Origin: a virus
IMG/VR virus record: IMGVR_UViG_3300042389_000218
Span: 1-24,728 of that record
Strand: one strand, 5' to 3'
DNA: 24,728 nt
Shown: piece after piece, positions 2,239 to 15,531 of the stretch
Position numbering within the stretch: position 1 is the stretch's first letter
How the letters are laid out: every line of letters starts with the position of its first letter
Position numbers and translations under genes: made by a program
The notes under the pieces: model-generated
The model's input: the letters and a program-made list of their open reading frames with translations, nothing else
Databases searched by the model: none
Told to the model about the DNA's origin: nothing

Positions 2239-2242
<4 letters not shown>
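1..2242 (-). CDS. Large fibre-like virion structural protein, 3' end beyond the window
   Basis: An open frame of 747 codons starts at the ATG at 2242 and stays open to base 1, so the C terminus is missing. I translated it by hand and found no stop. The start overlaps the stop of the collagen-like gene as ATGA (2239-2242), implying translational coupling. The protein is rich in Thr, Ser, Gly and Val. It has beta-type modules such as [18 protein letters not shown] followed by IGFGTT and DTSLTIS, and [20 protein letters not shown] followed by YYVIATN, module types common in long fibre or tail proteins of marine T4-like phages. A later part has aromatic-rich repeats that could be propeller-like. 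No enzymatic motif is visible. Its place next to the collagen-like fibre suggests a host-recognition or baseplate-attached fibre. The structural role is likely; the exact component is unknown. Confidence 0.8.
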
Positions 2243-5307
<3,065 letters not shown>

Positions 5308-8505: not shown

Positions 8506-8997
8506 TTAGCCGTTGGGCACGATCATCGCATGGACTTGAGTGAGTCCGTTTGGCAACTTGTTTGTCTCCACGCGCAGGGCGAGACCATGACCGAGCATGG
8601 GGGTGATTCCGTCATCATGAGATGTGCCATAGGTGGTTCCATCCGAACCAAAGACTCCACCAAAGCGAACAAGAGGAAGCATTTCCTCTGTCTGTGTGGA
8701 AAGCCGCATTGCACAATCACGATCCATGTGGAAGTCAAGACCGATCATCTGAAGCCGACCCTGTGCCTGCTTTAGGGCAGACACAGGGTCGATGTATGGC
8801 TTCGCAGATAGGGCACCAAGATAGGTGTTGATACGAGCAATCGCTGCATCGGACAGAGAAGACAGGTTGATGTCAGTCCCGTCAAGGGCATTGTCGCCAT
8901 CTTGCGGGCCTACGCGACCGCGAGTACCCACCGTATCAAACGGAGCATATGCTGCGGTTTCGTTGATTGTCTTTCTCAGTTCCTTGTAAGACTTCAT
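8506..8997 (-). CDS. Uncharacterised protein with an internal-head-protein-like N terminus
   Basis: 163 residues, function not recognised. The N terminus MKSYKELRKTINET resembles the capsid-targeting peptides of T4 internal proteins (MKTYQEFIAE|A), with a possible prohead-protease site INE|T; the P1' residue is not the usual Ala or Gly. A Gly/Asp-rich stretch (about 25-45) is followed by SLSDAAIARINTYLGALSAK and a compact domain containing IGLDFHMDRDC. It lies in a late cluster, 12 bases after the 312-residue virion-type gene. A packaged or decoration protein is possible. Neighbour context is better evidence here than sequence. Confidence 0.75.
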   Translation of the reverse strand: MKSYKELRKTINETAAYAPFDTVGTRGRVGPQDGDNALDGTDINLSSLSDAAIARINTYLGALSAKPYIDPVSALKQAQGRLQMIGLDFHMDRDCAMRLSTQTEEMLPLVRFGGVFGSDGTTYGTSHDDGITPMLGHGLALRVETNKLPNGLTQVHAMIVPNG

Positions 8998-10451: not shown

Positions 10452-10712
10452 TTAGCCGCCCTTTGCTTTCTTCCAAAGATCAGCATCTGCGGTCTTGCGT
10501 GTCTTACCACCAACGATGAAAGAGTTGACTCTAGCAAACGCCCATTGGTGGCTCGTAGCACCAGGGCGGTGACCGCCCTTCCATGCCGCCATGCCACGGT
10601 CATAGACCTTCTTGAGGATGCCGTATGGAATGCCGCTAGCCTTTGCTTTCTTTTCAAGGGCTGCGATGCGGGCTTCTGAGATGTCCTGCTTGAGCGATTT
10701 ATAGTTCTTCAT
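10452..10712 (-). CDS. DUF5824-like protein with a capsid-targeting-type N terminus
   Basis: 86 residues from the ATG at 10712, which overlaps the stop of the 1198-residue gene as ATGA; a longer in-frame version from 10739 would extend into that gene and is less likely. The body (AKASGIPYGILKKVYDRGMA, then AWKGGHRPGATSHQWAFARV) matches the DUF5824 pattern found in many marine phages, function unknown. The N terminus MKNYKSLKQDISE|A is like T4 internal-protein leaders and ends in the prohead-protease consensus (L/I)xE|A. I infer a head-packaged small protein made from the same late mRNA as the two genes before it. Confidence 0.85.
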   Translation of the reverse strand: MKNYKSLKQDISEARIAALEKKAKASGIPYGILKKVYDRGMAAWKGGHRPGATSHQWAFARVNSFIVGGKTRKTADADLWKKAKGG

Positions 10713-13700
10713 GACTTCTTCTCGGGATTGTAGCCCCATACCTTGAGTGCGAGCAGTTTGCGTGTTGGGCGACCCTTCTCGTCTCGCATGGCACCCTTGG
10801 CACCCTTCATACGATTGATGAAGTTGACTTGCTTACCCGCCCATTTCCAATCGTTGGGTGTCCACTTTTCCTTGGGGGTATCAAGCATGCGAATGATGGC
10901 TCTCGCGGAATCGCGTCCGCTTGTGATCTTTTCACCGCTTGCTCCTGCCTTACCCGCTTCTTTGCGAGAAAGTCCTGCTTCCTTGCCCTCGTCTGAATCT
11001 AGGAAAGATTCAATTTCTTTTCCTGACATGTTTACGAGTTTCTGCCATTCTTTGTAGAGCGCAGACTTCTCCTCTTCAGACTTGTCCTCACCAAGACGCT
11101 CCCGCTCACCAGGGGTGTCCTTTTTGTAGGTCTTGACGATCTCGTCAGAACCGATCAGGAGAGGGCCTCTCTTGCCAATAGCCGTCCATTGCATGGTGGC
11201 ATTGATCTTCTTCGATTCATCAAGCCATCGGGTGGACTCTACTTCCTCTCCGTGCATCTTCCATGCGGTGGCGTAGAAAACATCCTTCCACCGATTGCCA
11301 TATCGCTTTTGGAATTCCTTCTTGATCTTCTCCTTCTTGGAGAAACGACGAGCGGGGCCGCTAGGAGGACTGACTTCCAACATCAGATAGTCGAAGTCCT
11401 CATTAATGTCCGTCTTCGGCTGATCCTTACCCTGCTCATCTCGGATCTCCTTCAAAAGATCGATGTACAAACGGGCGATGTTTGCGGCTTCGGTCATCTT
11501 GCGGAGAATGCAACGCTCCTCGTATGCAATCGACATACGCAACTTTGCACCATTGGTCTCATCGGAAGCATCAATCGCAGCGAGTTTTTCCATGACTTCA
11601 TCATGCTCGTACTGGTTCTTAAGAGCCTTCAACTTGCCCTTCTTCTCCAGTTTCTTGTACAGGCTGCTATACTTCGATGGCTTTGTCTTGATGTCCTTCT
11701 CGTCAGGATTGACGAATTCCCATGTCTGTGGATCATCGTCCGACATGGTCTTTCGCTTCTCCAATCGCTTCTTTCGAAGTTCTGCGTCCTTCTTGGAGAT
11801 ACCCGCGACATACTTCTTTGGAAGACCCGATGTCTTGTCCTTGGGGCTTTCCTTCGTCTTGCCCGACTTGGTCTTGAATTCCTTGCCCTTGGTTACATCG
11901 GCTTCGATGAGGGGATCGCCCTCCATCTCATCGCCCATGCCCAAGACATGAAGCATCGGGTAAAGAAGAGACGCAGCCTTTGAAAGGTATGTGCTTACAT
12001 CAACTCCACCGCTAACAAACAACTTGTCCATCAACTTTACGATGATCTTGCCCACCTTATTGTCGGTAGCAAACGCAGTAAGAGTCATACCCGATACAGC
12101 AGCCTTGTGTGCTTGAACCAAGATTTCGGTTTTGGTCTTCTGCACTTCTTTCTTGAACTCTTCGGGGGGTAGCACCTTTTTCTTGTTCGCTAGAGTGAAC
12201 AACTTGGTGCTGACTGCGGGGGTCTTGATCAGTTCGACCACCGCCTTGGCAGCATCCTTGGTTGCCATCTCCGAAAGTTCTTCCTCTTCCTCCTCGTCGC
12301 CCTTGCGCTTGGAGTTAACATCAGGCTGAGGATAGATCGCTTCTGTGGGGTCTACTACCATTCCCGTCTTGCTGAGGAACTGCAACCCGATCAGAACCTT
12401 CGTAGACATGTGACTGCGATCACCAAGACTGAACTTGATGTTCGCGTACTTCTTGCCGTGGAACTCAATGTCCATCAGAACGACAAGTCGCTTCTTCTCG
12501 CCAATGCCACTCTTGACCGTGATGCGACTGACGATCTTCTTGGTAACCTTCTTGCCGTTGGGCAACTTGAAGGTGACGGTGTGATCGCCATTGTCCTTGA
12601 TGTCTTCGGCATGGATCATGTTGTAGCCGCTGTTGCCTGTGTCGATCTTGGCGGTGTACTCCACGCCATCGATCTTCACCTCTTCGCGCACGGCTAGATT
12701 GGAGAACAACTTCCAATGTGCCTTGTTGAGAATGTAGTCAACAAAGTCTTCGACCAGTTCCTCGCCCTTGACATTGTTCTTGCCCTTGCCATCTTCGTAA
12801 TAGCGGTAGTAGATGTTACCGCTGCCTGGGCTTGCATTCATCTCAATGATGTATGGCTTGCCGTCATTGATGACATGGTCGATTCCGACATAGTAGCACT
12901 TACTAACCCTTGCAGCCCGCTCCACCAACTTTATTTCCTCGTCAGAAAGTTGGAAAGACCCACCCTTTGAACCACGGGCGATGTTGGTACGGAAATCCTT
13001 TGGTGCCTTGTCGCGCTTGGCGCAAGCGAAGATCTTTCCGTTGAGGACGATACTGCGGACATCGTTCTTGAAGTTCGGCAGGAACTCCTGAAGAATAACT
13101 TCCGCACCATACTTCCATAGAGTCTGTAGCACGGACTTGAGGCTTTCCATGCTTTCGATCTTCGAAACGCCGATACCCTCTGCCCCCGTGAGGGTCTTGC
13201 AGATGATCGGGAACTTGCCGCCGACTTCCTTTACGGCAGATTCGATGTTCTCTTCATTGACAACGAAAGCGGTACGGGGATGTGGCAACTCATGCTTCTT
13301 GAGAGCAATTGCCGTCTCCAACTTGTTGGCGCACAGTTCCATGCCGCCACGCTCGTTGATCATGAACACCCCGTTGTTCTGTAGGATGGTCATGATTGCA
13401 ACACCGATCTCGCTGTTCATTACGCCGCCGCGAACAATTGCAACGGTGTTTGCGGGATCGACCACGGCATCTTTGCCTTCACCATCATAGTTCTTGATTG
13501 TGATCTTCTTAGAGGCAACATTGGAAATCTCCACCTGTGCCTTGCTCGTCTTAACAGCATAGAACTCAATCTTGCGCCGCTTGCAAATGGCTTCCATCTT
13601 CTCAATCGTATCGCTGAGATCTTTCTCAGAGGATGTCAGGGCAAGAATGGTGACTTTGTCTTCCCCATCCTTTGCTTCGAAGATGTACTCCTCCTTGAGA

Positions 13701-14305
13701 TTCATGCCCTTGCGGACATCGTTGTACATCTTCTTCTTGATTGCAACATCGTTTCCTGCGATGCCTGTAGAGAACTTCTTGAAGTCTCCATCAAACGCCG
13801 CTGCTCTCATTTTGGATGCGGACATTCCCTGAACGCCCTGTGCATCATCGTCGCGGGCTTCACCCGCCTGAACTACCTCAAAGGTATCGAATGAATACTT
13901 GCGCTTCTTAGGATCGCGCTCGGCAGTCTTGCCCTTGTACTTGGCGATGTTCTTGAAGTTCTCTACCTGATCGCTACCCGCGACCATGATGATGTTCTTG
14001 TAGCCCAAATCGCAGACATACAGAACCGCAGAATATGGATCTCCCGCCTTGTTCAGGGGGAACTTCGCCTTGGGGAAGAACTTCTTTAGATACTCAACCT
14101 TTTGCTTGTGCGTCAGAGGGTTCTTCTTCGGATCCTGTGAGGTAGATGCAAAGATGAAGTGATCCGCATTACGCTTCGATGCTTCGGAAAGAACCTTGTC
14201 AACGAGAACACCGTGACCGATTGTCGGTGGGTTCATGCGACCGAATGCAATAACAACCGTGTCCTTCTTCGGTGCTTCGGTGATGTGCTGTGCGAAGTTC
14301 TTCAC
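10709..14305 (-). CDS. Giant multidomain protein: nucleotidyltransferase, RimK-like ATP-grasp, retropepsin-like protease, packaged-module tail
   Basis: 1198 residues from a GTG start that overlaps the previous stop as GTGA. Residues 15-200 are an NMNAT/cytidylyltransferase-like domain (GRMNPPTIGH at 22-31, MSASKMR at 161-167). Residues 215-530 are RimK-like ATP-grasp, with K370 and a glycine loop (GAEGIG), FRTNIARGSKGG (438-449) and the metal-binding IEMNASPG (487-494). Residues 535-655 match the RimK-associated retropepsin-like protease family, with IDTG (554-557) and VLIGLQFL (637-644). Residues 666-800 are acidic then helical and unrecognised. Residues 824-880 are DUF5872-like (GLPKKYVAG, TKPSKY). 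Small Lys-rich modules follow (979-1020 and 1084-1195). The N terminus MKNFAQHITE|A and further (I/L)xE|A sites at 210 and 801 suggest prohead-protease processing at domain borders. Domain functions are family inference; substrates are unknown. Confidence 0.88.
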   Translation of the reverse strand: MKNFAQHITEAPKKDTVVIAFGRMNPPTIGHGVLVDKVLSEASKRNADHFIFASTSQDPKKNPLTHKQKVEYLKKFFPKAKFPLNKAGDPYSAVLYVCDLGYKNIIMVAGSDQVENFKNIAKYKGKTAERDPKKRKYSFDTFEVVQAGEARDDDAQGVQGMSASKMRAAAFDGDFKKFSTGIAGNDVAIKKKMYNDVRKGMNLKEEYIFEAKDGEDKVTILALTSSEKDLSDTIEKMEAICKRRKIEFYAVKTSKAQVEISNVASKKITIKNYDGEGKDAVVDPANTVAIVRGGVMNSEIGVAIMTILQNNGVFMINERGGMELCANKLETAIALKKHELPHPRTAFVVNEENIESAVKEVGGKFPIICKTLTGAEGIGVSKIESMESLKSVLQTLWKYGAEVILQEFLPNFKNDVRSIVLNGKIFACAKRDKAPKDFRTNIARGSKGGSFQLSDEEIKLVERAARVSKCYYVGIDHVINDGKPYIIEMNASPGSGNIYYRYYEDGKGKNNVKGEELVEDFVDYILNKAHWKLFSNLAVREEVKIDGVEYTAKIDTGNSGYNMIHAEDIKDNGDHTVTFKLPNGKKVTKKIVSRITVKSGIGEKKRLVVLMDIEFHGKKYANIKFSLGDRSHMSTKVLIGLQFLSKTGMVVDPTEAIYPQPDVNSKRKGDEEEEEELSEMATKDAAKAVVELIKTPAVSTKLFTLANKKKVLPPEEFKKEVQKTKTEILVQAHKAAVSGMTLTAFATDNKVGKIIVKLMDKLFVSGGVDVSTYLSKAASLLYPMLHVLGMGDEMEGDPLIEADVTKGKEFKTKSGKTKESPKDKTSGLPKKYVAGISKKDAELRKKRLEKRKTMSDDDPQTWEFVNPDEKDIKTKPSKYSSLYKKLEKKGKLKALKNQYEHDEVMEKLAAIDASDETNGAKLRMSIAYEERCILRKMTEAANIARLYIDLLKEIRDEQGKDQPKTDINEDFDYLMLEVSPPSGPARRFSKKEKIKKEFQKRYGNRWKDVFYATAWKMHGEEVESTRWLDESKKINATMQWTAIGKRGPLLIGSDEIVKTYKKDTPGERERLGEDKSEEEKSALYKEWQKLVNMSGKEIESFLDSDEGKEAGLSRKEAGKAGASGEKITSGRDSARAIIRMLDTPKEKWTPNDWKWAGKQVNFINRMKGAKGAMRDEKGRPTRKLLALKVWGYNPEKKS

Positions 14306-15504
14306 GACTCGTTTACCTTTCTATTCTGTCTGCTGAAGCGCAAACGATTGACCAACTTGACTGCCGTGCCCGTGCGAACGATTACGATCCCCTCGGGATC
14401 TGTGGGACGAATGCCGTCAGCATCTACAAAGAAGTGACCAAGAGCAGACACCGCATACATCTTTCCAAGAATCATTTCCTTGACTTTGGCGATCTTATTG
14501 TGCAACTCAAACATAGCGGTGAACTGACCCTCATACGCATCGATGAACGCGAGAATGTCATTCATGGCGGCTTCCTTCGCCTGTCTGCCCTTCTCGGTCT
14601 TCAACTTATTTAGTTCCTTTTCCAACTTAGTCTTAACATACAATTTCAGACCATTTGTGCTGAAACTGGTCATACCACCATTGATCGTGCTATTAATGTA
14701 GGGGAGCATCAGCGGCATGAGGTCTTTACGGGCAAGCAGCGGCTTCAGGAAGGGCTTTACCTTCTTCGCTAGGGCTTCGCACTCGGTAATGCTCCTGAGA
14801 GCCATATCGCCTTCTCCACCCTTCATAAGGGCAGGGGTGAGGTCGTAGATGTTTGGATCGGTGAACCAAACATCGGGATTCTGCTTGAGTTTGCTAGCGT
14901 TGAAATTGAAGGTGGTTGCCTTCAGATCGGCAAGAGTCTTGCCTGAGTATTCGGTATGGAATGTGATTCCAATCTTTGCGGCGGCGATGCGCTTACCGAT
15001 CTCGCCCTCAGTCGGAACGGTGTAAAGAATCGTATTTGGTTGGAAGCCGATGTGTGGCTTGCCGCCAATCGTGAGGTTCTTCTTGCCGTCTGCGGTGAAC
15101 ATCAGGTCTCCCTGTAGCACCGTCTTGATTCCGATCTTTGGAAGATGCTTTAAGCATTCGACCAACTTGTCAGCCAAGTCCTTGATGTCGAATCCCTTGC
15201 GAATCTCTTGCTCGGTATGAAAGACCTTTTGGACTTGCTTTCCAAAGACACCCTTGATGGCGACGAAGAACTTCTTGTTCTCGGGATTGATACCACAGAT
15301 GACAGCAGGCTTGCCGTCCCACTTGGTGGACATCCCCATGGTAGTGCTGCCTGTCTTGAGGCTCTGAACAATGTCCTTCATGAAGGCAATAGCATTGTCC
15401 AATCCGCTGCCACCACGAAGAAGCATAAGATCTTCGATGTGATCTAGGTGCTTGTTCTGCTCAGTTTGCTCTATCAGGGGGAGCATTTGCTTAAATGACA
15501 GCAT
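14302..15504 (-). CDS. DUF6267-like protein with polynucleotide-ligase nucleotidyltransferase motifs
   Basis: 400 residues. It carries a KWDG motif (61-64), which matches the nucleotide-accepting KxDG motif I of DNA/RNA ligases and capping enzymes. QGDLMF (131-136) resembles motif III, EGIVIV (371-376) motif IV, and VKLVNR (382-387) motif V. The order is correct, but about 230 residues lie between motifs III and IV, more than in ordinary ligases, so an inserted helical domain is likely (about 225-345). I recall the family as DUF6267 of marine T4-like phages. It has a late-type promoter and an AGGAGA site, and heads the operon with the 1198-residue protein. The N terminus MLSFKQMLPLIE|Q weakly resembles a capsid-targeting peptide. 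Ligase or RNA-end-modifying activity is inferred. Confidence 0.85.
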   Translation of the reverse strand: MLSFKQMLPLIEQTEQNKHLDHIEDLMLLRGGSGLDNAIAFMKDIVQSLKTGSTTMGMSTKWDGKPAVICGINPENKKFFVAIKGVFGKQVQKVFHTEQEIRKGFDIKDLADKLVECLKHLPKIGIKTVLQGDLMFTADGKKNLTIGGKPHIGFQPNTILYTVPTEGEIGKRIAAAKIGITFHTEYSGKTLADLKATTFNFNASKLKQNPDVWFTDPNIYDLTPALMKGGEGDMALRSITECEALAKKVKPFLKPLLARKDLMPLMLPYINSTINGGMTSFSTNGLKLYVKTKLEKELNKLKTEKGRQAKEAAMNDILAFIDAYEGQFTAMFELHNKIAKVKEMILGKMYAVSALGHFFVDADGIRPTDPEGIVIVRTGTAVKLVNRLRFSRQNRKVNES

Positions 15505-15523: not shown

Positions 15524-15531
15524 TATTTAGG
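15524..15531 (-). promoter_or_regulatory. T4-late-type promoter box (CCTAAATA) heading the ligase-like/polyprotein operon
   Basis: Six of eight matches to TATAAATA on the minus strand, 20 bases before the ATG at 15504. It lies between the tRNA and the ligase-like gene and is identical to the box before the collagen fibre. Confidence 0.5.

Follow-up and report, generated by a model that had tools for sequence, protein, structure and literature searches.

A T4-like phage encodes a multi-enzyme protein with a predicted capsid-targeting tag and candidate prohead-protease sites at its domain junctions

In bacteriophage T4, the first 10 residues of internal protein IPIII are enough for capsid targeting, with residues 4 and 7 serving targeting and residues 8 and 10 serving processing, and gp21 cuts after L/I-x-E (PMC9026906). 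Replacing residue 10 by Asp prevents processing in T4. T4 Alt is cut by gp21 at both ends, including LTE619 near the C-terminus (PMC5694885). In cyanophages, nucleotidyltransferases (NTases) related to the one considered here were detected by mass spectrometry (MS) in cesium chloride (CsCl)-purified virions of S-CREM2 (gp154; PMC10665884), S-SCSM1 (ORF91; PMC9602691), and S-SZBM1 (S-SZBM1_140; PMC9146016). The S-CREM2 authors propose that such proteins may travel in the virion and be injected (PMC10665884), so packaging of the NTase is already known and the mechanism added here is an N-terminal tag. We analyzed the complete IMG/VR virus record IMGVR_UViG_3300042389_000218 (24,728 bases, without the head region; hereafter the window). 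Its source is a T4-like phage, and it carries a gp41-like helicase and a primase found by profile searches and ThyX recognized by reading. A preliminary description had outlined a late polyprotein that may be packaged in the head and cut into several enzymes; the open reading frame (ORF) it proposed was borne out as a minus-strand gene for 1198 residues with a GTG start (Table 1).

The protein begins with MKNFAQHITE/A (a slash marks a predicted cut), exactly as first described, and the comparisons below support the T4-type capsid-targeting reading of this N-terminus. In register with the IPIII rules, the aromatic F4, I8, and E10 match. Close relatives keep [IL]xE/A with varying N-terminal spacing (e.g., MLNFSDHNNQINE/A) and rare exceptions. 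Tag-like starts occur in 52 of 64 NTase-family proteins (dereplicated, <80% identity). Where a long stretch precedes the NTase, 10 of 11 members carry the tag at the very start (e.g., MKSFSEFKE/S, MLTYINFLTE/S), and the tag sits at the protein start whichever domain comes first. Among homologues <90% identical, [LI]xE was present at the N-terminus in 17/21, compared with a mean of 3.1 and a maximum of 9 in random windows; this count is low because the test windows were too short for the MKTFSE/A and MKTFLE/A tags of L161, L187, and L201. In a 168-kb relative, nine ORFs start with MK[STNKR][FY]..[LIVMF]xE against ~0.2 expected (~45-fold), seven of which fall at 144–166 kb, outside the polyprotein locus. 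The same pattern begins four ORFs in Melnitz (0.2 expected) and one or two in HTVC008M and the cyanophages. A looser tag pattern was unusable in the 168-kb relative, with 21 observed versus 10–11 expected and column shuffles reaching 21.

The NTase relatives detected in virions begin with MKNFSSFLTE/A (S-CREM2), MKSFLQFLKE/A (S-SCSM1), and MRFRQFIIE/A (S-SZBM1), and the first two have F at positions 4 and 7, L8, and E10. Gene order in S-SCSM1 (helicase region, virion ORF, tRNA, virion ORF, NMNAT, virion ORF) resembles that of the window, where the helicase is followed by tRNA-Ile, a DUF6267 gene, and the polyprotein. Genes for gp21 (Peptidase_S77) occur in two relatives (G001, G003), namely the 168-kb one, with a polyprotein homologue at 88% identity, and one of 119 kb, as well as in Melnitz, HTVC008M, S-SZBM1, and syn9. 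The major capsid protein (gp23) contains FLAE/APTNAV in S-SCSM1, LLTE/APTQAV in S-CREM2, and LRE/SAPTN in the 168-kb relative, motifs that would lie where gp23 is expected to be trimmed. Head packaging, as proposed in the preliminary description, is supported by the same-tag homologues in virions (MS; PMC10665884, PMC9602691, and PMC9146016) together with gp21 in close relatives. No cytidyltransferase is mentioned in the virion paper on phage CBB.

Profile searches recovered all the domains named beforehand, comprising an NTase (residues 4–208, phrog_3041 E=3e-54), a RimK-like ligase (residues 327–497, PF08443 E=1.5e-28, 100.2 bits against a cut-off of 21), a retropepsin-like protease (residues 540–656, PF05618 (RimB/RloA) E=1.6e-9), and a Lys-rich C-terminal part. 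The NTase bears the TIGH and SASKMR motifs; by other NMNAT criteria its PF01467 score is under the cut-off, and no NMNAT structure matched in a PDB profile search. The RimK domain matches PDB RimK 7qyr by profile (E=1e-42), and its best fold match is 5zk6, RimK with RpsF (E=3e-19). It scores 142.2 for TIGR00768, just below the cut-off of 143.4, and far below the cut-off for the S6-ligase equivalog, so that S6 as its substrate is only putative. The retropepsin motif IDTGNS (residues 554–559) is conserved and the fold matches 9g58. Because this domain scores far under the RimB equivalog cut-off (NF052261, 28.4 bits versus 200) and higher for RloA3 (37.9, also below its cut-off), it is not classed as RimB. 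A model of residues 206–690 built from 15 homologues (predicted local distance difference test, pLDDT, 77) shows the ligase fold at 219–526, a beta-rich protease domain at 538–652, and then a disordered tail; the full-length model was poor (pLDDT 54.8). No ADP-ribosyltransferase match was found for the protein in Pfam, PHROGs, or NCBIfam. The helical segment that follows the protease has a hydrophobic amphipathic stretch, ends in LGMGDE, and could be membrane-active. Similar terminal helices occur in tagged proteins of HTVC008M and Melnitz (L146 1508–2566, L047 2290–3375).

Two internal sites had been noted, IFE210/A and LIE801/A, and both are exactly as described; a site at E679 and further candidates at E939, E977, and E1030 in the Lys-rich string had been missed. 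We compared the junctions of 22 homologues <90% identical with random windows. All 22 have [LIVMF]xE both at the NTase/RimK border (mean 5.5 and maximum 12 in random windows) and after the protease domain, at E679 (mean 10.2, maximum 18). The position and conservation of the tag and junction sites are beyond chance. An xEAD precedes the Lys-rich module in nearly all homologues having that module (ETD in L016), and the inserted modules of L025, L029, and L041 likewise follow [IL]xEAD. A border glutamate persists in relatives 34–46% identical, and those at 37–46% have it at both borders and end directly after the retropepsin. Conservation at domain borders was the check named in the preliminary description, and the sites proved to be conserved there and to lie in low-confidence linkers. 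E10, E210, and E801 all fall in such linkers, with residues 202–216 and 206–214 of low confidence around E210 in two models, and one of the four strict motifs, LSE41/A42, is inside a confidently predicted NTase helix of the full-length model. Three of four strict sites in low-confidence stretches is weak evidence alone because 44% of residues are too.

Comparison with separately encoded modules bears on the same junction. In pelagiphage Mosig (MQVQPFKNYLEE/A), L222 (MKSLKEFGSFLNE/A), and L221, RimK and retropepsin form a standalone protein with its own tag, and the fused border NLKEEYIFE/AK resembles the tag of the standalone form. Since the standalone pair carries its own tag, the E210 site may be a fused-in targeting sequence. 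The DUF5824 module is fused C-terminally to the Melnitz NTase protein and is separate and tagged in the window. Junction conservation and the occurrence of the same domains as separate tagged proteins lend indirect support to the originally suggested cutting into several enzymes. The suggested segmentation needs amending, as the conserved E679 site and a poly-Glu run would part RimK-protease from the helical segment that had been grouped with it.

Expression appears to be late. A TAAATA core likely drives an operon of DUF6267, polyprotein, and DUF5824-like genes. In the 168-kb relative this core is upstream of 31/193 ORFs versus 1.4 expected, the genes for scaffold, tail tube, and tail sheath among them, and it sits 25 nt upstream of the operon there and in the window alike. 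Five of seven TAAATA copies in the window are 23–35 nt upstream of a gene, and the plus strand has none. Because the core matches late genes of the 168-kb relative, the operon is read from sequence as a late operon, in line with the late expression first proposed. Unlike this shorter core, the complete T4 late promoter TATAAATA showed no enrichment when a single mismatch was allowed. The start of the polyprotein overlaps the end of the DUF6267 gene at 14302–14305 and its stop overlaps the ATG of the next gene, and the polyprotein is translationally coupled to both neighbors.

We hypothesize that the protein is a late, head-packaged multi-enzyme precursor. Residues 1–10 would provide T4-type capsid targeting by binding to the prohead core, a gp21-like prohead protease would remove this tag at E10/A11, and the same protease would cut [LI]xE sites between domains, at E210, E679, and E801 and probably at others. 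Mature heads would then hold the NTase, the RimK-retropepsin ligase/protease, the helical piece, and basic peptides, all of which would be delivered together with the DNA and be active ahead of phage gene expression. The predicted substrates are nucleotide or NAD-type compounds for the NTase and the tail of a host protein, most likely ribosomal protein S6, for RimK-retropepsin. We regard this explanation as a whole as probable. Considered singly, packaging of the 1198-residue protein is very likely on the sequence comparisons, trimming of the tag is predicted with equally high confidence, and the junctions point somewhat in favor of at least one internal cut, while injection and the proposed host targets are evenly balanced.

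Several observations weigh against this hypothesis. The 1198-residue protein itself is known from sequence alone; virion detections concern NTase relatives, and no cleavage was observed. Tag residue 7 is His, where IPIII has Phe at a position used for targeting in T4, and a few homologues have lost or changed the tag (L022, and L009 with E/Q). The count of strict [LI]xE[AG] motifs is within chance (4 observed versus 1.9 expected from shuffles, P=0.13), so the tests above addressed where the sites lie and how well they are conserved. At several junctions P3 is V, F, or M rather than the strict L/I, and the homologues compared are not phylogenetically independent. In S-SCSM1, the strict tag pattern occurs genome-wide in 2/48 virion-detected proteins versus 2/234 others, and is no useful virion predictor there because cases are few and most virion proteins belong to the tail and shell. 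Virion detection of enzymes can also be carry-over, and incomplete separation is mentioned by the S-CREM2 authors (PMC10665884). The protein might then be an ordinary late cytosolic enzyme, unpackaged, with the detections in relatives due to carry-over and the N-terminus coincidental. The particle list of YerA41 also holds many replication enzymes (PMC7354516), which makes the "structural protein" label of the YerA41 RimK-retropepsin homologue weak, and the possibility of incomplete separation raised for S-CREM2 fits as well. We nevertheless consider a cytosolic enzyme very improbable, given that three or more studies detected NTase relatives, all of them tagged, in virions purified on CsCl, and that the tag is enriched at ORF starts in the 168-kb relative and stands at the start irrespective of the leading domain. 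A second possibility accepts packaging and tag trimming and has the protein injected as one intact multi-domain (polyvalent) chain, the internal [LI]xE being uncut linker residues or remnants of fused tags. Phage proteins with 2–15 domains per chain are an established class (PMC5512222), T4 can deliver large fusions to its targeting sequence such as beta-galactosidase (PMC9026906), and at several junctions the P3 or P1' residue is non-canonical. Retention of the junction glutamate in 22/22 homologues although the linker around it varies, the internal cut of T4 Alt at LTE619 (PMC5694885), and the occurrence of the domains as separate tagged proteins make an intact chain unlikely.

A different question is which protease would cut behind the retropepsin. 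Six to eight contiguous glutamates, which the preliminary description had missed, directly follow the retropepsin in 16/22 dereplicated homologues. Runs of at least six are otherwise limited to one protein, the scaffold, in the proteome of the 168-kb relative and to none in S-SCSM1. Pseudomonas RimB cuts runs of at least six contiguous glutamates, including an internal eight-Glu linker (PMC11957791), so self-cutting of the polyprotein is possible. The embedded retropepsin would then cut the run behind it, freeing the helical and Lys-rich part, and gp21 would trim only the tag. Besides the rarity of such runs and the RimB precedent, this reading draws on the absence of the run from relatives with nothing after the retropepsin and on its modeled position in the disordered tail right after the protease fold. 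However, the six homologues with fewer than six glutamates still keep [LIVMF]xE, the domain scores higher for RloA3 than for RimB and below both cut-offs, and the glutamates might instead mimic a substrate or form an acidic stretch that binds the core. Self-processing as the sole internal cut is rather doubtful. A combined scheme, in which the packaged polyprotein matures itself like Gag-Pol by retropepsin cutting of its own poly-Glu linker beside gp21 cuts, and RimK-retropepsin is injected with the NTase as a preformed regulator of S6 glutamylation, is speculative and fairly unlikely.

Table 1 Features of the polyprotein locus in the window.
Feature	Coordinates	Strand	Basis or remark
1198-aa multi-enzyme protein	10709..14305	(-)	GTG start; ORF call, profile searches
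Capsid-targeting sequence MKNFAQHITE, T4-type, residues 1–10, predicted gp21 cut E10/A11	14276..14305	(-)	Alignment, T4 rules
HIGH-type NTase, TIGH + SASKMR motifs, residues 11–208	13682..14275	(-)	Profile searches, motifs
IFE, residues 208–210, candidate gp21 site E210/A211, NTase/RimK junction	13676..13684	(-)	Conservation, low-confidence linker
RimK-like ATP-grasp ligase fold, residues 219–526	12728..13651	(-)	Profile, PDB match, model
Retropepsin-like protease (PF05618), DTG motif at 555–557, residues 538–652	12350..12694	(-)	Profile, 9g58 match, RloA3/RimB, model
EEEEEE, residues 671–676, possible retropepsin self-cleavage substrate	12278..12295	(-)	Homologue alignment
LSE, residues 677–679, candidate gp21 site E679/M680	12269..12277	(-)	Conservation
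Helical segment, residues 680–801	11903..12268	(-)	Absent in some homologues
LIE, residues 799–801, candidate gp21 site E801/A802	11903..11911	(-)	xEAD conservation
Lys-rich module string, residues 802–1198, net charge +22	10712..11902	(-)	DUF3140/DUF6321-like end
Late-promoter core TAAATA (CCTAAATAA)	15524..15529	(-)	25 nt upstream of DUF6267 start
DUF6267 protein, 400 aa, first operon gene	14302..15504	(-)	PF19782 E=1.4e-92
DUF5824-like protein, 86 aa, N-terminus MKNYKSLKQDISE/ARIA, own tag	10452..10712	(-)	Profile searches
163-aa protein, tag-like N-terminus MKSYKELRKTINE/T, candidate fellow packaged protein	8506..8997	(-)	No family match

The DUF6267 protein has a tag-like N-terminus (MLSFKQMLPLIE/Q) and is possibly packaged too. 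It had no PDB match by sequence search. Its KWDG, EGIV (EGIVIV), and KLV motifs, inspected by eye, are kept as KxDG, EGxV, and KLV/KIV in homologues from Melnitz, HTVC008M, S-SZBM1, and syn9, and in sequence it looks like an undescribed covalent nucleotidyltransferase of the RNA/DNA ligase type. Elsewhere in the window, a 1022-residue collagen-like protein (2239–5307, minus strand) with long Gly-X-Y runs and a late-promoter core upstream is probably a fiber.

Tag-like starts were also seen in other genes. A cluster in relative G001 at ~144.8–165.5 kb (L143, L144) includes ORFs starting MKSFSQHITE/A and MKTYFDLLQSIQE/A, the latter with a Lys/Ala-rich basic stretch, together with a 1067-aa ORF starting MMNEFQRRILAE/A and one starting MRDFKNFIMNE/S with a P-loop; these may be further packaged proteins. 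Small tagged proteins of S-SCSM1 (44215–44535, MKTFKQFMSE/SVNISGDFNGNLY) and S-SZBM1 (122311–122628, MKSFKSFLSE/SVNISGDFNGNLY) are candidate small internal head proteins of cyanophages. Gp185 of syn9 (L148 4941–6530) has an acidic N-terminal part followed by MLAE/DYYDSAVKASK and a long Lys/Ala-rich basic tail, and resembles a precursor that could be cut to give a DNA-binding internal protein.

A T4-type tag with prohead-protease sites would provide a mechanism for the unexplained enzymes that recur in virions of marine T4-like phages, and the N-terminal signature would allow genes for injected proteins to be predicted among the unknown genes of these abundant phages. Should the junctions be cut, a single gene would deliver several host-modifying activities in a fixed ratio at infection, among them a possible ribosome-modifying ligase/protease pair, active before any phage gene is read. 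Virion NMNAT-like proteins were previously reported; the tag, the junction sites, and the RimK-retropepsin-polyE architecture appear to be new. A literature search, with many subscription papers outside its reach, found no paper that links cyanophages to capsid-targeting sequences or phage polyproteins to retropepsins.

Among known systems, the cyanophage virion NMNAT-like/cytidylyltransferase proteins (S-CREM2 gp154, S-SCSM1 ORF91, S-SZBM1_140) have a homologous NTase and the same tag, lie in a similar gene neighborhood in S-SCSM1 and S-SZBM1, and were seen in virions, with injection proposed by the authors. Unlike the window protein, they are 286–409 aa without RimK, retropepsin, helical, or poly-Glu parts, and the available portions of the reports do not describe the tag or cut sites. 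Polyvalent proteins (Iyer et al. 2017, PMC5512222) are likewise late phage proteins in which numerous enzymatic domains share one chain, packaging being predicted in our case, and self-processing is predicted for their embedded peptidases, for example in P1 DdrB. The T4-type tag, gp21-type junction sites, and retropepsin with a poly-Glu run set the window protein apart from them, and RimK has zero occurrences in the text of that paper. The bacterial RimABK system and its RimBK hybrid (PMC11957791) also join a RimK-type ligase and a retropepsin-like protease in one protein, and the best fold match of the window protein is RimK with RpsF, but the order in the window, RimK then protease, is the reverse, and the pair is carried in a probably packaged phage protein. 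T4 IPI–IPIII and Alt share the 10-residue targeting sequence, the L/I-x-E cut, late synthesis, and the role of injected effector, features that for the window protein are predicted. The latter differs in having no ADP-ribosyltransferase or IP fold, many domains per chain, and candidate sites at every junction, so that, judged by its sequence, the polyprotein would be delivered in the manner of T4 Alt and the internal proteins without being an Alt itself.

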